DNA of 28,764 bases from Candidatus Altarchaeum sp. (GCA_018260755.1 JAGTWP010000013.1:1-28764), one strand, 5' to 3'; numbered from the stretch's first letter, positions 87 through 27,417 are shown. Program-made: numbers and translations. Notes: a model not told the origin generated them from the sequence alone.

Positions 87-1001
87 AACTTAACTTCAAC
101 CGAAAGCAAGAACGAAAATGTTCCTACTCAAACAGAAGAAAATAAAGCGGAGAATGCCAAAATTTCCAATAAAGATGCAGATGATGGAAAGAAAGATGAT
201 GGACAAGTAGTTGCAGTAGATAGGAACTTTAAAAAGCATCTGACGATAGTAGGACTGACTGTTGAACCACCTGATATATATTTAGAGAATGGTGTTCATA
301 TTGGCTCAAAATTTAAAACAAATGATATGCGACAGTATATATACAGGGTAAAAACAGCAAGGACTCCGAAGGGATGGATAAAAATTTCCGTATTTGATGT
401 TGCAAAGATAGATAAAAAAATAAAACTGGCTGCAAAATTTTTATCCTCATACACACCCGGCGATGTTGTTGTCATTTCAAACGGTCTTTACGGAAGAAAA
501 CCAGCATCAATGTTTGCAAAATATTGCGGATTTAAATTTGTTGAGGGGAGATTTGACAGTGGCACACTTACAAATCCAAATTCAAAAAAATATGTGGAGC
601 CAAAGGTTGTCTTTATAACTAATCCAGCAGAAGATAAACAGGCAATAAAAGAGGCGGTAGAAGAACATCTGCCTGTAATTGTTTTTGCTAATTCAAATAC
701 ACGACTTAAAAATATTGATTTTGCAATTCCGGGCAATAATGTCGGAAAGTACTCAATTGCGATGCTTTACTGGCTTTTAACAAAAGAAATTTCAAAAATA
801 AAGGGGTTTGAATTTAATGTTCCCGTTCCAAGAGCAACTGTTGTTGATGCGGAAGGAAAAGAAATTCCGCATGAATTTGTTTCAACCGAAGAGCCCGCGG
901 ATTATTTAGTAACAATGAGAGAAATAAATAAGGCCTTAAAGAGAAAAAGAAGAAACAAAAAAGGAAGCATAAAGATAAAACACAAGATAATCATAAGATA
1001 A
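1..1001 (+). CDS. rps2: 30S ribosomal protein uS2 (archaeal S2), 5'-truncated by window edge
   Basis: Structural protein of the small ribosomal subunit. The reading frame is open from base 3, so the gene enters from the left; the ATG at 327 is internal. The diagnostic uS2 block GTLTNPNSKKYVEPKVV, the preceding ENGVHIGSKFKTNDM segment and the later KYSIAMLYWLLTKEI helix are all present. Before this core lies a low-complexity N-terminal tail: about five TTTEKE hexapeptides, then a Glu/Lys/Asn/Asp-rich stretch to about base 230. Such a tail is not part of the usual roughly 200-residue archaeal uS2 core. The last residues and the stop codon lie inside a tandem repeat (about 969-1072), so the C-terminal sequence IKIKHKIIIR is repeat-derived. 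The true start is outside the window. Confidence 0.93.
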   Translation, partial: TTTEKETTTEKETTTEKETTTEKETTTENLTSTESKNENVPTQTEENKAENAKISNKDADDGKKDDGQVVAVDRNFKKHLTIVGLTVEPPDIYLENGVHIGSKFKTNDMRQYIYRVKTARTPKGWIKISVFDVAKIDKKIKLAAKFLSSYTPGDVVVISNGLYGRKPASMFAKYCGFKFVEGRFDSGTLTNPNSKKYVEPKVVFITNPAEDKQAIKEAVEEHLPVIVFANSNTRLKNIDFAIPGNNVGKYSIAMLYWLLTKEISKIKGFEFNVPVPRATVVDAEGKEIPHEFVSTEEPADYLVTMREINKALKRKRRNKKGSIKIKHKIIIR

Positions 1002-1072
1002 AACACAAGATAATCATAAGATAATCATAAGATAATCATAAGATAATCATAAGATAATCATAAGATAAAACA
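969..1072 (+). repeat. 11/23-bp tandem repeat spanning the uS2 stop codon
   Basis: Two copies of a roughly 23-bp unit (aagataaaacacaagataatcat without the last bases) are followed by about five copies of an 11-bp unit (ataatcataag). The array starts inside the uS2 coding region and continues past the stop at 999-1001 to about 1072. Because the unit is not a multiple of three and the second copy carries the stop, the repeat sets the C-terminal end of uS2. No spacers are present, so it is not CRISPR. Confidence 0.88.
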
Positions 1073-1114
1073 GGATAAATTTTAACGATAAATTTTAACA
1101 GACATCAAACAACA

Positions 1115-1927
1115 ATGGATTTTTTAATCTCCGAAGAGGGAATTGTGATTTTTGTAATTGCAATTGTATTGGGACTGGCAAGCAGCTTGGTAATGAAATT
1201 TACCATGGGAAAGGATGCAAAGGAAGCGAGAGCAAAGCAAAAAGTACTTGGCGAGGACTTAAAAGCAGCATTAAAGGCAAATGATGTTAAAAAAGCAAAA
1301 GCACTGCAAAGCGAACTAATGAAATCATCGCTGTCTTCAATGAAATTTTCGCTAAAACCAATGCTTATTACATTTATTCCTTTCATATTGGTTTTTGGGT
1401 GGATGTCTACTTCTTATGGAAGTATTGGTAATGTAAATTTTGAGATGAATGTAAGTGATCCAGATTTTGCGGTTTTTAACTGCCCTTCACAGACCGATTC
1501 AAACCATCCTTATTATTGCAATTCTTCTTATTTTAACGGAACATTAACTGGAGGGCAAACAATTGATTTTGGTATCCTTGTTACTCAGAATCAATCGGAG
1601 GATAAAACAAAAATTGAAATTAATGGCTTTGCAAAAGACACTCATGGAGGAAAAGAATATATTTTATCTGCTGAAACAGTTACCGTATCAAACGGAGAAC
1701 CAGAAAAAAATCCTTATTATCAGAAGGAAAACAAAGATGTAGAAATAACTCCTAAATTTTTATCAGCATCAAGTAAAGGAATCGCACAATATAATTTTCA
1801 ATTGGCAAACCATCTGTCAGGCACTGTTATAACTTTATTTGGAATTGAATTGTCATGGTTTATATGGTATATACTTATCGCAATTCCGTTTTCATTTATC
1901 CTGGGAAGATTACTCAAATTATATTAA
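1115..1927 (+). CDS. DUF106 / EMC3-TMCO1-like membrane protein (Oxa1 superfamily)
   Basis: A 270-residue integral membrane protein of the archaeal DUF106 group, relatives of YidC/Oxa1/EMC3 that help insert membrane proteins. Visible parts: a hydrophobic segment at about residues 8-27, a charged Lys/Ala/Glu helical stretch (about 33-75, coiled-coil-like and probably cytoplasmic), a second hydrophobic segment (about 87-104), a polar domain of about 130 residues, and a C-terminal hydrophobic segment (about 243-264). The polar insert is unusually large for the family and carries four N-X-S/T sequons (NVS, NSS, NGT, NQS), which fits an extracytoplasmic position. The gene lies directly upstream of eL34, its common archaeal neighbour (secY-adk-DUF106-eL34). 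Family fairly sure; the exact role is inferred. Confidence 0.8.
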   Translation: MDFLISEEGIVIFVIAIVLGLASSLVMKFTMGKDAKEARAKQKVLGEDLKAALKANDVKKAKALQSELMKSSLSSMKFSLKPMLITFIPFILVFGWMSTSYGSIGNVNFEMNVSDPDFAVFNCPSQTDSNHPYYCNSSYFNGTLTGGQTIDFGILVTQNQSEDKTKIEINGFAKDTHGGKEYILSAETVTVSNGEPEKNPYYQKENKDVEITPKFLSASSKGIAQYNFQLANHLSGTVITLFGIELSWFIWYILIAIPFSFILGRLLKLY

Positions 1928-1981
1928 ATATTGAATTCATAAAATTCTTAATTGTATTAAATTTTGTATTAAATTTTTAAA

Positions 1982-2341
1982 ATGGTAAATAGACAACTAA
2001 GATCAACAACAATAAAACGTCTGATAAGGAAAACACCTGGCGGAAAGGTTGTTACGATATATAAACCAAAGAAAACCGGAAAGCATATATGCGGAAGATG
2101 CGGACAAGTATTAAATATGCCTTATGATCAACGTAAAGTAAGAAAACTTTCAAAGAGTGAAAAAATTCCTTCAAGGCCATATCCTATGCTTTGCTCAAAA
2201 TGTGCAGAGGAAGTTGAGAGATACAAAGCAATGGCGGATGTAACATTTAAATTTAAGTTTGATGCAAATTTTAAGAGGGATTTAACAATAGAGAAATTTT
2301 TGCAAAAAGGATGGTTTAAGAAGATTTCAGCGAGCAAATAA
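1982..2341 (+). CDS. rpl34e: 50S ribosomal protein eL34
   Basis: A 119-residue large-subunit protein found only in archaea and eukaryotes. The N-terminal basic segment, with TPGGKVVTIYKPKK, leads into a zinc-ribbon with two CxxC knuckles (C37/C40 and C71/C74). The RPYPMLCSKC segment is typical of the family. The C-terminal region of about 40 residues is basic. It starts 54 bases after the DUF106 stop, so the two are probably co-transcribed. The ATG follows an A/T-rich leader (tttttaaaATGG) with no Shine-Dalgarno-like sequence. Confidence 0.95.
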   Translation: MVNRQLRSTTIKRLIRKTPGGKVVTIYKPKKTGKHICGRCGQVLNMPYDQRKVRKLSKSEKIPSRPYPMLCSKCAEEVERYKAMADVTFKFKFDANFKRDLTIEKFLQKGWFKKISASK

Positions 2342-2360
2342 AAGAGATTGTGTTGCTGTT

Positions 2361-2379
2361 GTCCTGAAATTTTCAGGAC
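2361..2379. terminator. Perfect 8-bp hairpin after eL34
   Basis: The arms gtcctgaa (2361-2368) and ttcaggac (2372-2379) pair perfectly around a 3-nt loop, 20 bases after the eL34 stop. No T-tract follows, so it is not a classical intrinsic terminator. It may act in 3'-end formation or transcript stability between eL34 and tRNA-Val. Confidence 0.35.
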
Positions 2380-2483
2380 GACCTAAAAATGGTGAAAAGA
2401 AAAATTTTAAAATTTAAAACAAATTTTAAAACAAAAGTATAATTCTTAATATTAAATTTATTTGTATTAAATTTTATTTTAAA

Positions 2484-2556
2484 GGGCTTGTGATCTAGTG
2501 GTTATGATGTCTGCCTTACACGCAGAATATCCCCAGTCCGAATCTGGGCAAGCCCA
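2484..2556 (+). tRNA. tRNA-Val (anticodon TAC)
   Basis: A full cloverleaf can be drawn. Acceptor arms GGGCTTG (2484-2490) and CAAGCCC (2549-2555) pair perfectly, with discriminator A at 2556. The anticodon stem is TCTGC/GCAGA with loop CTTACAC, giving anticodon TAC. The T stem is CCCAG/CTGGG with loop TCCGAAT. The 3' CCA is not encoded and there is no intron. The T loop reads T-C-C rather than the usual T-T-C, so position 55 is C. Confidence 0.93.
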
Positions 2557-2611
2557 AATTTTAAATTTTTTAAATATTGGTGAAATTCTTAATAAAATTT
2601 ACTGAACCAAA

Positions 2612-3964
2612 ATGATTCATCCGATTGAGTATAGATACGGAAGAAAAGAAGTTAAAGAAATTTTTGACGAGGAAAAACGACTGGACTATATGCTTAAAGT
2701 TGAATGTGCAGTAGTCAAAGCCCATTATAAAGCCGGGAACATAAGGGATAAATCAATAGTTGATGAAGTTGAAAAGAAAGCCAACACAAAATTTGTGAAA
2801 TTAAGCAGAGTTAAACAAATTGAAAATGAAATAAATCATGATGTAATGGCAGTAGTGAAGGGACTAAGCGAGGTTTGCGAAGGCGATGCGGAAAAGTATA
2901 TCCATTTAGGTATTACCTCCAACGACACAATTGATACTGCAAATGCCTTGCAGTTCGCTGATTTTATAAAATTTCTGGAAAGCGATTTGCTCAATTTAAG
3001 AAGTGTTCTAACTAAACAGGCAGAAAAGAACAAACAATTAGTATGTATCGGAAGAACTCACGGACAGCACGCAATTCCGACAACTTACGGAATGAAATTT
3101 GCAATCTATGCAATGGAAATTCAGAGACATATTGAACGATTAAATGAATGCAAAAAGCGGTTGCTTGTCGGGAAAATCAGCGGAGCGGTGGGAACTTATG
3201 CGGCACTCGGAGAAAACGGAAATGAAATTGAAAAAGCAGTTATGGACGAATTAAATTTAAATCCGGCAGAAATTTCAAATCAGGTAATACAAAGGGACAG
3301 GTATGCAGAATTTTTCAGCCATCTCGCTTTAATTGCAAAGACACTTGAAAAGATTGCGATTGAAATCAGAAATTTGCAGAGAACAGAAATTGACGAAGTT
3401 GGTGAACATTTTGAAAAGGGAAAGCAGGTCGGTTCTTCAACGATGCCACAAAAGCGAAATCCGATAATAGGCGAAAGAATTTGCGGAATAGGAAGAATTA
3501 TCGTGGGAAACGCCATCGCATCGCTTGATAACATTCCTTTGTGGCATGAGCGGGATTTAACAAATTCATCAGCAGAGCGGATAATTATTCCCGAAATCTG
3601 CATTTTGAGCGATTATATCTTAAACTTGGCAATAAATTTAATCAAAAATCTGGAATTTAAGTATGAGAACATTGACAGAAATTTAAATTTAACAAACGGA
3701 TTAATAATGTCTGAAGCCGTGATGATAAATTTAACAAAAAAAGGACTTGGAAGGCAGGAAGCACACGAATTAGTAAGGGAATGTGCGATGAAGGTATATG
3801 AAAGTAACAATAAGATAAATTTCAAAGATGTCCTGCTTTCCGATGAAAAGATAAGGAAATTTTTAAGCGATGATGAAATCAGACAGGCATTAAATCCGAA
3901 GAATTATATCGGAATTGCTGTTAAAAAGGTTGATGAGATTTGTGAAATTTTGAAAAATAAGTAA
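2612..3964 (+). CDS. purB: Adenylosuccinate lyase
   Basis: Cytosolic purine enzyme of the fumarase/aspartase superfamily. It cleaves adenylosuccinate to AMP and fumarate, and SAICAR to AICAR and fumarate. At 450 residues it has the usual length. The superfamily signature GSSTMPQKRNP lies at residues 274-284. The GRTHGQHA motif, with the catalytic-region His at 150, and the upstream TSNDTIDT segment are intact. The ATG at 2612 gives the typical MIHPIEYRYG start. It stands alone between tRNA-Val and a repeat-filled gap; no other pur gene is in the window. Confidence 0.96.
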   Translation: MIHPIEYRYGRKEVKEIFDEEKRLDYMLKVECAVVKAHYKAGNIRDKSIVDEVEKKANTKFVKLSRVKQIENEINHDVMAVVKGLSEVCEGDAEKYIHLGITSNDTIDTANALQFADFIKFLESDLLNLRSVLTKQAEKNKQLVCIGRTHGQHAIPTTYGMKFAIYAMEIQRHIERLNECKKRLLVGKISGAVGTYAALGENGNEIEKAVMDELNLNPAEISNQVIQRDRYAEFFSHLALIAKTLEKIAIEIRNLQRTEIDEVGEHFEKGKQVGSSTMPQKRNPIIGERICGIGRIIVGNAIASLDNIPLWHERDLTNSSAERIIIPEICILSDYILNLAINLIKNLEFKYENIDRNLNLTNGLIMSEAVMINLTKKGLGRQEAHELVRECAMKVYESNNKINFKDVLLSDEKIRKFLSDDEIRQALNPKNYIGIAVKKVDEICEILKNK

Positions 3965-4025
3965 GAAAATTTAGATTTTAATATTTATTGTTAAAATTTA
4001 TAATTTATTATATCTCAAAAATTAT

Positions 4026-4177
4026 CGCTCTTATGTTGATTTTCACTGATAGAGATAAATACATTGTTGAAGTTTTGCAAATTTTAAAATTCAAGCACAA
4101 ACTCAAATATAAATCCAAGTTCAAATACACTATAAAATGCAAAACATAAAAGTTCAATGATAATAAGTATATGAGCG
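4026..4177 (+). mobile_element. Dispersed repeat, family A copy 1 (MITE-like)
   Basis: A 152-bp unit that recurs at roughly 90% identity in reverse orientation at 11935-12084. It begins CGCTC and ends GAGCG. The ends are imperfect inverted repeats (cgctc-n-tat against ata-n-gagcg), and weaker inverted similarity runs inward (cattg...gttttgca on both arms), so a single strand could fold into a long imperfect hairpin. There is no coding capacity. No clear target-site duplication is visible, so mobility is inferred from the second copy and the terminal symmetry. A structured RNA gene is the alternative. Confidence 0.7.
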
Positions 4178-4181
4178 AAAA

Positions 4182-4340
4182 TTGAATGAAGAAAATAAGT
4201 TAAGAAAAATTGAGAAATACAAAAAGAAATATATGCTTAAAAAATATGTTAGTGAAGTTAATGACATAAAGGTGATTTTTATTGATTCTGAAAGTGAAGA
4301 GCAATTAGCAAAGAAACTAAAGTTAAAAATTTTGAAATAA
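4182..4340 (+). CDS. Possible small protein of unknown function
   Basis: An open frame of 52 codons from a TTG at 4182 (35 residues if it starts at the ATG at 4233). The predicted peptide is Lys/Glu-rich and mixed helix/strand, ending KLKLKILK; I do not recognise it. It starts just past the end of the family A repeat and ends 17 bases before the convergent stop of the next gene. It could be a real small protein, the remnant of a larger gene cut by the repeat, or chance. Confidence 0.25.
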   Translation: MNEENKLRKIEKYKKKYMLKKYVSEVNDIKVIFIDSESEEQLAKKLKLKILK

Positions 4341-20829: not shown

Positions 20830-21495
20830 ATGCACATTGCCATAACACCTGACGGAAACAGAAGGTATTCTAAAAAGAAAGGTATGAATTTTGAAGATGC
20901 CTACACAATCGGAATGAATAAATTCCGGGATTTTATTGAATGGTGCAGCAAAATGGATGTTGAGAGTATTACCGCTTATGCTTTATCTCTGGAAAATATT
21001 CGGAACAGAAGTGCAGCGGAACTGGAAATTTTAAACAAAATTTTAATAAAAGAAATAGACAAAACGATAAACGACGAAAGAATTCACAAAAACAAGGTCT
21101 GCGTCAGAATTTGCGGAAATTTAAATGCAATAAAAAGTAAAAAATTTGTTGAAAAATTAAAAGAATTAGAAGATGCAACGGCAAAATACAGCAAACACAG
21201 GGTAAATTTAGCGGTTGCTTACGGGGGAAGGCAAGAGATCATGGAAGTTATAGAAAAATTTAAGAACAGCAATGAAGAAGTTAATGAAGAAAATGTGCGA
21301 AATAAATTGCTTATTAAAGAGTATCCCGATATATTTATAAGGACAGGTGCGCATCGGATAAGCAACTTTTTGCTGTGGCAGGTGGCATACTCCGAAATTT
21401 ATTTCATAGATAAACTATGGCCTGAATTGGAAAAGGATGACCTGATAAAAATTATAAGCGACTATAACAAAACAAAGAGAAATTTTGGAAAATAA
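20830..21495 (+). CDS. uppS: cis-Prenyltransferase (undecaprenyl/dolichyl diphosphate synthase)
   Basis: Condenses isopentenyl diphosphate units in cis to make the long polyprenyl diphosphate used as a glycan carrier. The protein is 221 residues. The first conserved region is IAITPDGNRRYSKKKG, with catalytic D8 and the N-R-R triplet. The AYALSLENIRNRS segment follows. The C-terminal region RTGAHRISNFLLWQVAYSE, then WPE, is diagnostic. A missing start is unlikely: the ATG matches other members, which begin just before PDGN. It is the gene upstream of the STT3 oligosaccharyltransferase, which uses such a carrier. Confidence 0.94.
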   Translation: MHIAITPDGNRRYSKKKGMNFEDAYTIGMNKFRDFIEWCSKMDVESITAYALSLENIRNRSAAELEILNKILIKEIDKTINDERIHKNKVCVRICGNLNAIKSKKFVEKLKELEDATAKYSKHRVNLAVAYGGRQEIMEVIEKFKNSNEEVNEENVRNKLLIKEYPDIFIRTGAHRISNFLLWQVAYSEIYFIDKLWPELEKDDLIKIISDYNKTKRNFGK

Positions 21496-21829: not shown

Positions 21830-24800
21830 ATGCAGGGTGTAAATTTACCGACATCAAAAAATTTAGACAAGTGGGTAGGGGGTATTAGCGAGAGGATTAT
21901 TGAACCGTTATTTATTATTTCGGTTTTGACATTTATACTGGCAATTATCAAACCATTCATTTCAGGAGCAAATCAAATTCCTCCGATTGTCTTTGCATAC
22001 ATATTTTTAACACTTGGTATAATATCATCTTATTTTGTTTATATGTATTTTAAGAAGGTTAAGAACTATTATCTTATGGGAGTTCCTGTTTTGATATTTA
22101 CAGAGGCATTGTTTTCTTTTTATGGACAGGCAGGTGGCTGGATGGCAGGTGATTTTAATGTTTTTGGAGTTGTGCTCGGAATTTATCTACTGTTTTATGT
22201 ATTATCTATGCATAAATTTTTATCAAAGGAATTTGCAGCAGTGCTCGCAATTGTTATTTCCGTATTTTTGTTCCATCTGGTTCCTGCAACAAATCCTTAT
22301 TTGACGAGCGGGGATGCATTTGATAGTCACTGGCATTATAAAATTGTTAATAATACTTATACAACTGAACATGTGATGGATTATGATAATTTGACATATC
22401 CGAAAATAACAGACCCTGCTTATTATGCGAGCACCCCTGAAAGTCAATGGAAAACATCCGGTGGGCTTGATTTTTCAACGAATTTTTATTTACATGCCGT
22501 ATTCATGGCATCAACGGCAAAAATTTTATCGCCTTTAGGTATTAACCAATACGATACTGCGATGCTGTTCGGCGGATTGATGGCTGGCTTTGCTGTGCTT
22601 CTTATGTATTTATTCCTTAGGGAAATTTTTTCTACTTACGCTCCGTATAACAAATTAGTCGGATTAATAGGTGCGTTTTGTCTGGGTTTTAATTATCTTT
22701 ACTCTACTAGGTCAATTGCAGGAAGTGACGAAGCAAGTGAAATGGGATTAATGCTTATGGCTGCAACGATGTATGTAATATTTAATGCGATTAAAAATAA
22801 GTCATTAAAATGGACATTACTTGCAGGAATCACATTTTTCTTTTGGTCACTTGCATGGAGCGGATATGCTGCTTATGGAATGTATGCTATCGGATTATTT
22901 GCTGTTTTGTACGCGTTGGCAAAATTTTTAAACAAAGAAAATACATTTTCGCATGTGCCGTACATAGTAATTCCGATGCTCTTTTCATTGTTTAATGTAT
23001 TAATTTTACATGCACATAATGTCCTTCCAGCATTTCAAATTTCAAAAACTGTAATGCTTATTTTTGCCGTGGTTATTGTTATCCCTTTAATCCTTGAAAT
23101 GTTAAGATTATTCTTGATAAAGTCAAATATAATAACATCAAATGAAGAATATAATGAAGGTAATAAAGGCAAAAGATTGGGCAAACTTGAAATAATAAAT
23201 TTGTTTATAGAGAGAACATTAAACAATCTTCCGAAAAGTGTTTTGGGAGGTGTAAGTGGAGGAATTATTGTTATTGGCATAATAGGAATTTTTACTCTCC
23301 ATGACATGTTTCTTGACCCTATTTTAGATGCATTAACAGTTACTACAAGCGGTGTTGTCTTTAAGACAATTGCGGAACAAATAGGCCAGGGTCATTTTAC
23401 AGATTATGGAATTTTATTTTTATACGGATTAGCAATGCTCCCCTTGCTTTCTTATTTAATTGCAGGCAGGCAAGGAAAACCTTCATTGCACACTCTTATA
23501 CCAATAGGAATAGCAATGTTGCTCCATTATATAGTAATAGTTATGATGGGTTCATCTTCATTATCCTTGATTGGAAGTACACATTCATGGTTGATATTTA
23601 TACTGTTTGCTTTTTTTGATATTATTGCTATACTTTTGCTTACACTTAAATTTTCTCCTGAAGGTGGAAGAAGGGGTGCTTTAATAATTTTAATTTTGGC
23701 AATTTCTGGATTGTGGGCATATTATAATGTACCTCAAAGAGGGGTAGATTCTGTTCTCGGAATTATTGCATTAGGTGCTACTATCGGATTAATTGCAGGA
23801 ATTAATAGAAAGAACTTAAACGGATTGAGAATAATAGGAACAATTGCAGTGCTTATAATTCCGTTATTTGTATTTCCTTTTATTTTCCCAACAGATGCAT
23901 CAGGAAATCCCGTCACTAATACATTTCTTTCATATTTTTCACCTTTATGGCATTCGTCAACAACAATGCTTCATCAGGGTGGTGACGGAGATTGGAATAT
24001 AGGAAGCGGAATAAACTGGTGGATGCCGGGATTGCAGTGGTTTAATGAAAATACAAATAAACAGGATATTGTTTTAACATGGTGGGATTACGGACACTGG
24101 ATCACTCCGATAGCAGAAAGGCCTGTATTGATTGACAATTTACAGGCGGTTCACTGGCAGCTTCAGGAAGTAGCGAGATTTTTTACATTATATCAGACAG
24201 AAGACGAAGCAATGAAATTAGTAAAAGAGTATCCGAATACAAAGTATATTGTTATTGACTATACATTAATTGGAAAGAATCATGCGTTACGGTTTATAGC
24301 ACAAGGCAATTTATCAAAACAGGAAGATAAGGAATATGAAGAATGGCTTAAAAACCCGGAAAATCCAAACAAAAATGCATTAGGGGTATGCGGTTTTGGC
24401 GGAAAGGTTGATAGAGTTGAAAAAAGCAGTGCAGGAGGCAGTGAAGAAGTTAGCAAATTGTACTTTTATTGTAGTTATCCTCCAAACAAAACACAACGAC
24501 CTGATTATATAGGAATAATTATCTTTGATATTGCAAAGCGAAATGTAAATATAAATACACCTGATAATTCACAGATATATGTTAAAAAGATAAGTGTGTG
24601 GGGATTAACCGACCAGGAAAGACCTGGAAGTGGACCCATTCCAACCGAAGAAATGTCCTTGGATGAATGGAAGAAGAATCATAATGGTTCTTTACTTGGA
24701 ATTCAGTCGTTTGGCGATGTAATTAATTGTGTTATGCGAGACGATACTTCCCGTACAGTTTGCGGATTGCCTATGTACAGGGAATTTGTTTATGCTCCGA

Positions 24801-25789
24801 ATGAGTTTCAAAATCATATGTTCACAAAGCTATATTTGGGAGAACATGCCGATAGTTATACCCAACAGGGATTATGTAATGCCGACTGGTGTAAAAATCT
24901 TTCGGAACGACTGAAGAACTGGAAACTTGTCTGGGATAATAACTATGGATATATAAGAATATGGAAATTGGCGATGCAATGTGGAATTGATAATGGCTGC
25001 GATACGACAAGCCAATATTGTGACGAAACAAAACATTGTGTAGATAAAAAGAAAGAAAAAGAAACATGCACAAATAGTACAGAATGTGCAAGTGGAATAT
25101 GCGAAAACAGTATTTGCAGAATAACGCATCTCAAAGAAGTTAATGAAGTATGTCAAAATAATAACGAATGTAAAAGTAATGCCTGTGTAAATGGAAAATG
25201 TGCTGAATTTTCACCTGAAATTTATGATGAGATGAAGAAATTTGAAAGTAAAAATGCAGTTATTCCCATGTGTATGAATGAGACAATATCTGAAAATGAC
25301 AAAGCTAAATTTTATACCTGCTATAAAAATAACCTATCCGAAGGAAAACTAAACGATGACTATAAACTTGCGCAAAGTATGGGTGTTAGCGGAACTCCTG
25401 CTTTTATTACTGGTTGTGACAGCAATGAAATGAAAGATTTATGTGTAAAAATCTCCGATGAAAATAAACAAGAATGCCAAGTCAGGTTAATTAAATATGT
25501 GCAACAAAACAAGAATTTGGAGTGCAGGAAAGACGGGAAAATTTTAATTTACGAATTTACAAACTTACAATGTCCTTTCTGTATTAGGGCAGAACCATTA
25601 GCTAGAGAGTTGAAAAAAAGAAATGATGTCGAAATGAGTGTTCATTTATTCTTCCCAAGTCATCCTGTTCCGTCTGTCCAAAATGAGCATATGGCGATAA
25701 AATGTGCAGAGGATGTAGGAAAATTTGATGAATTTAAGGACTGTGCATTTGATAAATTCTCCAAAGAAGGAATAAGTCAGGTTGATTAA
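21830..25789 (+). CDS. aglB: Oligosaccharyltransferase STT3/AglB fused to Cys-rich repeats and a permuted DsbA-like domain
   Basis: Membrane enzyme that transfers a lipid-linked glycan to Asn in N-X-S/T sequons on the extracytoplasmic face. Residues 1 to about 690 are a multi-span domain. It includes an Asp motif D162-A-F-D165-S-H-W-H (catalytic Asp probably 165), a second acidic loop at D300-E301, and the TIAE motif at 513-516. The soluble domain has WWDYGHW at 751-757, which recognises the sequon Ser/Thr. About four extra membrane segments precede the first Asp motif. From C1051 there are Dickkopf-like Cys repeats (CTNSTECASGICENSIC and a second copy), then a thioredoxin-like region with SGTPAF (cis-Pro 1190) placed before CPFC (1248-1251). 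At 1319 residues it is longer than usual AglB (roughly 800-1000). Confidence 0.93.
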   Translation: MQGVNLPTSKNLDKWVGGISERIIEPLFIISVLTFILAIIKPFISGANQIPPIVFAYIFLTLGIISSYFVYMYFKKVKNYYLMGVPVLIFTEALFSFYGQAGGWMAGDFNVFGVVLGIYLLFYVLSMHKFLSKEFAAVLAIVISVFLFHLVPATNPYLTSGDAFDSHWHYKIVNNTYTTEHVMDYDNLTYPKITDPAYYASTPESQWKTSGGLDFSTNFYLHAVFMASTAKILSPLGINQYDTAMLFGGLMAGFAVLLMYLFLREIFSTYAPYNKLVGLIGAFCLGFNYLYSTRSIAGSDEASEMGLMLMAATMYVIFNAIKNKSLKWTLLAGITFFFWSLAWSGYAAYGMYAIGLFAVLYALAKFLNKENTFSHVPYIVIPMLFSLFNVLILHAHNVLPAFQISKTVMLIFAVVIVIPLILEMLRLFLIKSNIITSNEEYNEGNKGKRLGKLEIINLFIERTLNNLPKSVLGGVSGGIIVIGIIGIFTLHDMFLDPILDALTVTTSGVVFKTIAEQIGQGHFTDYGILFLYGLAMLPLLSYLIAGRQGKPSLHTLIPIGIAMLLHYIVIVMMGSSSLSLIGSTHSWLIFILFAFFDIIAILLLTLKFSPEGGRRGALIILILAISGLWAYYNVPQRGVDSVLGIIALGATIGLIAGINRKNLNGLRIIGTIAVLIIPLFVFPFIFPTDASGNPVTNTFLSYFSPLWHSSTTMLHQGGDGDWNIGSGINWWMPGLQWFNENTNKQDIVLTWWDYGHWITPIAERPVLIDNLQAVHWQLQEVARFFTLYQTEDEAMKLVKEYPNTKYIVIDYTLIGKNHALRFIAQGNLSKQEDKEYEEWLKNPENPNKNALGVCGFGGKVDRVEKSSAGGSEEVSKLYFYCSYPPNKTQRPDYIGIIIFDIAKRNVNINTPDNSQIYVKKISVWGLTDQERPGSGPIPTEEMSLDEWKKNHNGSLLGIQSFGDVINCVMRDDTSRTVCGLPMYREFVYAPNEFQNHMFTKLYLGEHADSYTQQGLCNADWCKNLSERLKNWKLVWDNNYGYIRIWKLAMQCGIDNGCDTTSQYCDETKHCVDKKKEKETCTNSTECASGICENSICRITHLKEVNEVCQNNNECKSNACVNGKCAEFSPEIYDEMKKFESKNAVIPMCMNETISENDKAKFYTCYKNNLSEGKLNDDYKLAQSMGVSGTPAFITGCDSNEMKDLCVKISDENKQECQVRLIKYVQQNKNLECRKDGKILIYEFTNLQCPFCIRAEPLARELKKRNDVEMSVHLFFPSHPVPSVQNEHMAIKCAEDVGKFDEFKDCAFDKFSKEGISQVD

Positions 25790-25875: not shown

Positions 25876-26069
25876 TGTTGCGAAATAATTTTAGTATATT
25901 GTCACAATATATTCATAACAATTTTGAATTTTTTCGCCCTAAAAAAATAAATTTTTTGGTGGATTATATATTGTTATTGTAAAAACCTCTCAGGTTTTTA
26001 GAATACTCAAAAATGTTTCAAACATTTTTGATATGGTATGAAATATCTTATATGACCTATTTCGCAACA
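25876..26069. mobile_element. TIR element, family C (MITE-like)
   Basis: A 194-bp non-coding stretch bounded by perfect 12-bp inverted repeats TGTTGCGAAATA (25876-25887) and TATTTCGCAACA (26058-26069). Inside are two perfect hairpins, 25981-25999 (aaaaacct/aggttttt) and 26008-26030 (caaaaatgtt/aacatttttg), and the string ttttttggtgg also found in family B. No clear target duplication flanks it. With its flanks it fills the gap between the STT3 and folC genes; the 86 bases before it hold nothing I recognise. Confidence 0.6.
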
Positions 26070-26115: not shown

Positions 26116-27417
26116 ATGAAATTTTCTGATATTATTTTGTATTTGTATAATTTAAGAAGTTCAAAAGGAATTGACTTAACGCTTGAAAGAATAAAAGACG
26201 CGTTATCTGCTGCCGGCAATCCGAATGAAAAATTTAAAAGTATTCATATTGCAGGAACAAAAGGAAAGGGAAGTATAAGCACGATGCTTGCATCAATATT
26301 AAAAGAAAGCGGTTACAATGTCGGTTTATATACTTCCCCTCACTTAACTGATTTCAGGGAGCGGCTTCGGGTAAATAACAAGAAGATTTTAAAAAAAGAG
26401 GTCCGCGAAATTTTTAACGAATGTAAAGAAGTAATAGAAAAATTTAACCTGACATTTTTTGAGGCGGTAACTTTAATGGCATTTGTCTATTTTGAAAAAA
26501 ATAAAATTGAAATTGCTGTCATTGAGGTCGGAATGGGCGGTAGATACGATGCAACGAATGTTATAAATCCGATTCTTTCAATAATATCCAACATTTCAAT
26601 TGACCATCAGGAATTTTTGGGGAATGATGAAATTTCAATCGCAAAGGAAAAGGCAGGGATAATAAAAAACAATGTTCCTTTAATTACCTGTGTTGAGCAG
26701 GATGAAATTTTAAATTTATATAATACGATATGCAAACAAAAAAATTCCAAATTAATACACCTAAATTTTTTCCCGAAAGGAATGAACAAAGACCTAAAAT
26801 TTCAGGAATTTGTTTATAAAAACAAGCAATATACAATTCCTTTATTGGGGGAACATCAGATTAGAAACGCCGTCTGTGCAATAGAAGCAACAGAAAAATT
26901 AAAAAATTTAGGAATAGAAATTTCAGATAAGGCAATTAAAAATGGATTGAGGAATGTCCTAATTGAAGGTCGGCTTGAAGTGTTTAAAAGGATTCCTTTA
27001 ATTATTATTGATGTCGCTCACAACAAAGCAAGTTTTGAAGCATTGTTTAATACAATGTTAGAAATAAAACATACGGAAAATTTTAAAAGCATAATTTTGA
27101 TTCTTGGGATTTTAAAATACAAAAACATGGAAGAAATTTTTAATATAGTATCAAAATTTTCCGGCCTGATAAGTACAATAATTCTTACAAAGCCAAATTA
27201 CAAACTGGCTGCGGAACCTGAAGATATGAAAAAATTTTTAAATTTTGAAAATGTATTTTCCACAGGCAATGTGAAAGATGCAATTGAGATGGCGTTGGAT
27301 ATAAATAAAACAAAAACTAACAGCACAGCGGACATTACAACCGCTATTGTTATTGCAGGTTCATTTTTTACCGCCGCAGAAGGAAAAAAATACTTAAAAT
27401 TTAATTTAAAACATTAA
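26116..27417 (+). CDS. folC: Folylpolyglutamate synthase / dihydrofolate synthase
   Basis: ATP-dependent Mur-ligase-family enzyme that adds glutamate to dihydropteroate or folate. The 433-residue protein has the P-loop GTKGKGS (residues 47-53), the following SPHLTDFRERLRVN, the EVGMGGRYDATNV block and the ISIDHQEFLG segment with the metal-binding His. The C-terminal domain has the VAHNKASFEAL region in place of the usual DGAHN. The last residues (KFNLKH) and the stop are part of a tandem repeat that continues downstream. No other folate gene is in the window, and archaea vary in whether they use folate. Confidence 0.93.
   Translation: MKFSDIILYLYNLRSSKGIDLTLERIKDALSAAGNPNEKFKSIHIAGTKGKGSISTMLASILKESGYNVGLYTSPHLTDFRERLRVNNKKILKKEVREIFNECKEVIEKFNLTFFEAVTLMAFVYFEKNKIEIAVIEVGMGGRYDATNVINPILSIISNISIDHQEFLGNDEISIAKEKAGIIKNNVPLITCVEQDEILNLYNTICKQKNSKLIHLNFFPKGMNKDLKFQEFVYKNKQYTIPLLGEHQIRNAVCAIEATEKLKNLGIEISDKAIKNGLRNVLIEGRLEVFKRIPLIIIDVAHNKASFEALFNTMLEIKHTENFKSIILILGILKYKNMEEIFNIVSKFSGLISTIILTKPNYKLAAEPEDMKKFLNFENVFSTGNVKDAIEMALDINKTKTNSTADITTAIVIAGSFFTAAEGKKYLKFNLKH

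Follow-up and report, generated by a model that had tools for sequence, protein, structure and literature searches.

The STT3 gene and its extension

The stretch of DNA analysed here (the window; 28,764 nucleotides, GCA_018260755.1 JAGTWP010000013.1:1-28764) comes from Candidatus Altarchaeum sp., phylum Altarchaeota, and carries on its plus strand a gene (21830-25789) in which an AglB/STT3 oligosaccharyltransferase is fused through a Cys-rich stalk to a domain that we assign, from motifs, profiles and structure prediction, as a circularly permuted DsbA-like domain. The gene is one ATG-to-stop open reading frame (ORF) of 1319 residues with no internal stops, and the window contains no Ns. A sequence-only reading had described a complete AglB/STT3 (WWDYGHW at residue 751, TIAE at 513) that continues without a stop into Cys-rich repeats and a thioredoxin-like domain with CPFC at 1248; the motif positions, the profiles and the intact ORF all agree with this description.

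Motifs and alignment assign residues 1-700 (21830-23929) to the STT3 membrane region, which contains the first Asp motif FDSHWHYK (D165) and TIAE (513-516). Residues 701-1046 (23930-24967) form the globular domain with WWDYGHW at 751-757 (24080-24100), identified by profiles and motif. FDSHWHYK, TIAE (E516) and WWDYGHW line up with the AglBs of class relatives, Pfam gives an AglB_core-like match above its cut-off (1e-7 at 747-812), and phmmer matches in the PDB are human STT3A (3e-11) and archaeal AglBs. By motifs and profile, residues 1-1046 are an AglB/STT3 oligosaccharyltransferase, predicted to transfer glycan to Asn.

The AglBs of class relatives stop shortly after a GYVRVYK-type motif, unlike the window protein. 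Its stalk, residues 1047-1126 (24968-25207), has three 4-Cys repeats at 1051-1124 with a weak Dickkopf_N match (E 0.01 in the window protein, 3e-4 and 8e-4 in relatives) and is followed by a final domain of 193 residues (1127-1319); 27 of the 29 cysteines in the protein lie beyond residue 880. The last hydrophobic segment is near residue 690 and there are no transmembrane (TM) segments in the tail. The WWDYG domain is extracytoplasmic in the AglB/STT3 family, and since no hydrophobic segment follows, everything past residue ∼ 690 should lie on that same side, as the sequence-only reading had proposed for the added domains.

The tail is a circularly permuted DsbA-like domain

Pfam matches positions 135-173 of the DSBA profile to residues 1157-1195, ahead of positions 14-86 of Thioredoxin_4 at 1237-1305. 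Half-domain hidden Markov models (HMMs), for which 18 canonical archaeal DsbAs served as the training set, located the C-half at tail residues 114-151 (independent E-value 2e-8) and the N-half at 183-264 (3e-12), so that the canonical N-half/C-half order is reversed. The two halves, delimited by profiles and HMMs, correspond to residues 1127-1225 (25208-25504), with the cis-Pro loop GTPAF at 1188 (25391), and residues 1226-1319 (25505-25786), with CPFC at 1248-1251 (25571-25582). The same HMMs placed the C-half before the N-half in eight proteins (the window protein, its counterpart in Candidatus Altarchaeum sp. HURL_140 and six standalone proteins, of which L138 is altiarchaeal and five come from other archaea) and returned the normal order for two canonical DsbA controls. 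The Cys and Pro of CPFC and GTPAF are invariant in a three-row alignment; neither Altarchaeum permuted copy has lost CxxC or cis-Pro, nor has the standalone altiarchaeal relative.

Two AlphaFold models were calculated. Model 1, for which the tail, two permuted relatives and canonical halves (as unpaired rows) were supplied, has pLDDT values mostly of 85-96 across the Dsb part. Foldseek returned 1UN2 as its only PDB match below 1e-3, and VIA-align gave Z = 10.7 over 157 residues for 1UN2 versus ≤ 6.1 over ∼ 95 residues for ordinary DsbAs, whose matches cover only half of the domain. Model 2, calculated from the three permuted sequences only, with no canonical DsbA rows, is of lower confidence (pLDDT 63) but again has 1UN2 as first match (Z = 10.0 over 158 residues; next 4.8 over ∼ 95). 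Both models have the DsbA fold (a thioredoxin fold with helical insert) and both pack as a single such fold, on which ground we rejected the idea of two unrelated half-domains. As modelled, the tail is a naturally circularly permuted DsbA-like domain that folds as one thioredoxin domain, and it would be a candidate dithiol oxidase. The thioredoxin fold expected around CPFC is thus present in both predictions. The sequence-only reading had overlooked that the domain is a permuted DsbA and not an Ost3/Ost6-type thioredoxin, as well as the different thioredoxin domain of sister species and the prolyl isomerases of other archaeal AglBs at this position, both described below. No natural permuted DsbA was found in the literature searched, which left out most subscription papers.

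A scan of our sequence collection with the three-row permuted alignment returned nine loci, the bacterial ones among them in canonical order. Standalone circularly permuted DsbA-like proteins occur across several archaeal lineages (L038, L083, L084, L085, L086 and L138); in L086, CPYS replaces CPxC. In four other loci (L057, L076, L139 and L140), one ORF encodes canonical DsbA domains in tandem, two or three of them in each case.

Conservation and exchange of the terminal domain

Four Altarchaeum genomes, 65-87% complete, were compared: that of the window (G000), G001, G002 and G003, the last being HURL_140. HURL_140, a separate assembly, encodes a single ORF of 1321 residues with the same architecture (L033/L137), which together with the intact ORF in the window establishes the STT3-oxidoreductase fusion as genuine and not a product of assembly. 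The two proteins are 87.5% identical over residues 1-700, 90% in the Cys repeats and 51% in the Dsb domain, which in HURL_140 remains permuted and carries CPGC. G001 and G002 retain STT3 and the three Cys repeats, followed by a shorter thioredoxin-like domain of ordinary order with CPHC, whose Pfam matches fall below the cut-off; the G001 STT3 gene is divided between two contigs. A CxxC motif is present in all four members of the genus (CPFC, CPGC, CPHC and CPHC), on two different scaffolds.

The gene folC (26116-27417, plus strand) lies downstream of STT3 in all four genomes and the difference in terminal domain therefore falls inside a syntenic locus. A cis-prenyltransferase gene of the uppS family (20830-21495, plus strand), whose product presumably makes the lipid carrier, adjoins STT3 upstream in the four genomes and in G012, a member of another altiarchaeal family; across the Altarchaeum genomes it is 86.0-91.9% identical to the copy in the window. 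Comparison of G000 with G003 gives a ratio of non-synonymous to synonymous substitution rates (dN/dS) of 0.27 for the permuted domain, and that of G001 with G002 gives 0.08 for the CPHC domain; by this measure both types of tail are under purifying selection.

Between STT3 and folC lies an element of 194 bp (25876-26069) resembling a miniature inverted-repeat transposable element (MITE), with 13-bp terminal inverted repeats (TGTTGCGAAATAR). The genome contains about ten or more copies related to it, and just 25 nt occupy its place in HURL_140. Truncation of the gene by this element was considered and rejected, because it begins 86 bp past the stop codon and the protein of element-free HURL_140 ends at the same place.

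Related domains and other AglB tails

In the genome of the window, the CPHC domain also ends a lipoprotein that starts with an FKBP domain and adjoins a second FKBP-Dsb lipoprotein (L131/L173). The two genes overlap (C52, 1074-2423 and 2377-3606), each encoding FKBP plus a thioredoxin-fold domain (DsbA-like; CPHC). A secreted NosD β-helix protein of the same genome (L150; C49, 637-2118, minus strand) is interrupted close to its N-terminus by a CPHC thioredoxin-like domain. S_Layer_N, NosD and FKBP_C domains are known from the hamus protein, and proteins with FKBP_C and Thioredoxin_4 have been noted previously in Altiarchaeales (PMC4975002). A secreted substrate-binding-like protein, also encoded in this genome (L002; C43, 604-2640, plus strand), has similar 4-Cys repeats.

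G012, which the STT3 tree puts in a separate clade, has an STT3 C-terminus followed by CPHC. We regard this STT3-CPHC fusion as probable only, because the STT3 is broken at scaffold gaps, the edges of which share 314 bp at 98%. A further altiarchaeal STT3, of 1220 residues (L039; G004, 591-4253, minus strand), has a Cys-rich tail with CAESC after an FPT strand; its only profile match is GILT (E 0.11), and it is possibly a second permuted thioredoxin-like tail.

Elsewhere the C-terminus of AglB carries other folding catalysts. In one survey, 12 of 30 AglB loci end in a cyclophilin by sequence, and the ten of these tails that were checked against Pfam matched at 1e-45 or better. The AglB-cyclophilin fusions (L113-L116, L118, L119, L122, L123, L125, L128-L130, L031 and L224) are common in genomes resembling Nitrososphaeria. 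Locus L047 (976-4392, minus strand) encodes an AglB/STT3 that ends in a prolyl isomerase of the FKBP type (PF00254, 2.9e-15). Reading of ∼ 40 additional AglB tails, most of them from long AglB ORFs of diverse archaea, gave one more cyclophilin and two Ig-like domains and, in the tails of at least 300 residues that were viewed, no thioredoxin. AglBs with a C-terminal CxxC thioredoxin-like domain were found throughout Altarchaeum and probably in G012; none was seen among the tails viewed in this wider sample. Neither an AglB-thioredoxin nor an AglB-peptidyl-prolyl isomerase fusion was found in the literature searched, most subscription papers lying outside it.

A subunit of the Ost3/Ost6 kind was sought separately. 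PF04756 is absent from the Pfam matches of the window protein at E ≤ 1, and a search of 29 genomes of the class with this profile found no Ost3/6-like four-TM subunit. The matches obtained stay within positions 5-109 of the 294 in the profile, are plain thioredoxins and come from ORFs of 107-162 residues in nearly all cases (one has 397). Homology of the tail to Ost3/6 was rejected on the profile result and on architecture.

Discussion

The fusion is genuine, is conserved inside a single genus and seems not to have been described before; its surprising elements are the joining of AglB to DsbA and the natural circular permutation. Altarchaeum has two membranes separated by a periplasm ∼ 32 nm wide, in which the hamus, whose subunit is predicted to be glycosylated, is assembled (PMC4460559). 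We favour, with a probability of roughly 0.6, a single-chain oligosaccharyltransferase with its own thiol-disulfide oxidoreductase, which would engage the cysteines of emerging surface proteins. STT3 would move the lipid-linked glycan onto Asn sequons of polypeptides as they emerge across the inner membrane, and the disulfide-rich stalk would position the permuted domain on the membrane side where the STT3 catalytic domain lies. The CPFC pair could then attach transiently, through mixed disulfides, to cysteines of the polypeptide that is emerging, keeping cysteine-near sequons unfolded for glycosylation, passing on disulfides as glycosylation proceeds, or both. MAGT1 and TUSC3 form mixed disulfides with clients and aid glycosylation near cysteines (PMC7563561). 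Surface proteins, for example of the hamus and NosD types, would be likely clients. We infer the redox activity and its oxidative direction, the clients, the effect on glycosylation and a redox partner. The adjoining prenyl-carrier gene and the folding catalysts found at the same place in other AglBs are consistent with this single-chain reading.

Several observations weigh against it. Most altiarchaeal AglBs have no thiol domain, and the Dsb domain has evolved at a far higher rate than STT3 (dN 0.37 versus 0.07; dS 1.37 versus 0.35-0.75), which suggests either that one copy of the permuted domain was replaced or that constraint on it is looser. VKOR was not found in the four Altarchaeum genomes and a DsbD_TM/CcdA-like match is present in G001 only; since these genomes are incomplete, such absences are weak evidence.

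The strongest competitor, though distinctly less probable, is that the tail is a general DsbA-like oxidative-folding or isomerase domain, for which STT3 provides only a membrane anchor at the site of translocation, and that it would oxidize client disulfides or reshuffle them as the clients pass, with no effect on glycosylation. The fold is that of DsbA, an oxidase family, and not of Ost3/6; a related CPHC domain occurs on proteins unconnected with oligosaccharyltransferase (FKBP lipoproteins and a NosD protein), and the fusions of AglB with cyclophilin and FKBP suggest that folding is assisted in a general way at the exit site. This explanation leaves unaccounted for why the AglB chain was chosen over any other membrane anchor. 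It overlaps with the one we favour and the sequence does not separate the two: oxidation of secreted proteins in the usual DsbA manner is as good a fit as Ost3/Ost6-like coupling.

A chiefly structural or self-directed role of the tail, in which it would either form or maintain the disulfides of its own stalk or serve as a degenerate peptide binder without redox catalysis, is improbable. The crowding of cysteines after residue 880, the fast divergence of the Dsb domain and the CPYS of the permuted relative L086, from which it follows that the motif can be lost, would fit such a role. Against this stand the CxxC and cis-Pro kept in both permuted Altarchaeum copies and in the standalone altiarchaeal protein, and the different CxxC domain that sister species have at the same place. 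That two genes were joined by faulty assembly or binning, conceivable for an incomplete metagenome-assembled genome of 78 contigs, is so improbable that we rejected it, given the same junction in a second species with the uppS-STT3-folC order kept, and its position, in a window without Ns, within an uninterrupted ORF on which purifying selection acts.

The single-chain oxidoreductase reading can be extended, at odds that we would put slightly short of even, to AglB at large: the enzyme may repeatedly have been made into a single-chain glycosylation-and-folding machine by means of a swappable C-terminal catalyst (cyclophilin, FKBP, CPHC thioredoxin or permuted DsbA), and the Altarchaeum thiol domain, by tethering or oxidizing the cysteines of emerging surface proteins during glycosylation, would be an independent invention of the task of Ost3/Ost6. 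Eukaryotes couple N-glycosylation and disulfide formation through separate oligosaccharyltransferase subunits, and the origin of the link is unclear. If our reading is right, one archaeal polypeptide with both activities makes the coupling testable in a single protein, and sister species that differ by such an exchange of the terminal domain provide a natural experiment. The fusions of AglB with folding catalysts suggest that the archaeal glycosylation site also serves as a folding station, and a natural DsbA permutant that matches a laboratory-built one should be useful for folding studies.

Comparison with known systems

The window protein shares WWDYG, TIAE and the layout of membrane and globular regions with archaeal AglBs of the STT3/PglB family, to which it adds the Cys-rich stalk and the thioredoxin-fold domain; we know of no AglB structure with an oxidoreductase tail. 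The AglB-cyclophilin and AglB-FKBP proteins likewise have a folding catalyst fused at the C-terminus, but these are prolyl isomerases of other lineages and not thiol oxidoreductases. With DsbA (PF01323/PF13462) the tail has in common CPxC, the cis-Pro loop, the helical insert and a predicted fold that matches over the full length, whereas its halves are swapped and it is fused to an oligosaccharyltransferase. The engineered circularly permuted Escherichia coli DsbA (1UN2, CPDSBA_Q100T99; chain 1-189) aligns over nearly its whole length, but is laboratory-made, whereas the archaeal domain is natural and only ∼ 15% identical. Ost3/Ost6 and TUSC3/MAGT1 (PF04756) also place a thioredoxin-fold CxxC domain beside STT3 on the extracytoplasmic side, with proposed client mixed disulfides (PMC7563561). 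They are separate subunits in which a thioredoxin domain at the N-terminus is followed by four TM helices, whereas the Altarchaeum tail is a C-terminal extension of STT3 that has no TM segment and is DsbA-type and permuted. The most likely reading is that the Altarchaeum domain would act like Ost3/Ost6, to which it is not related by architecture.
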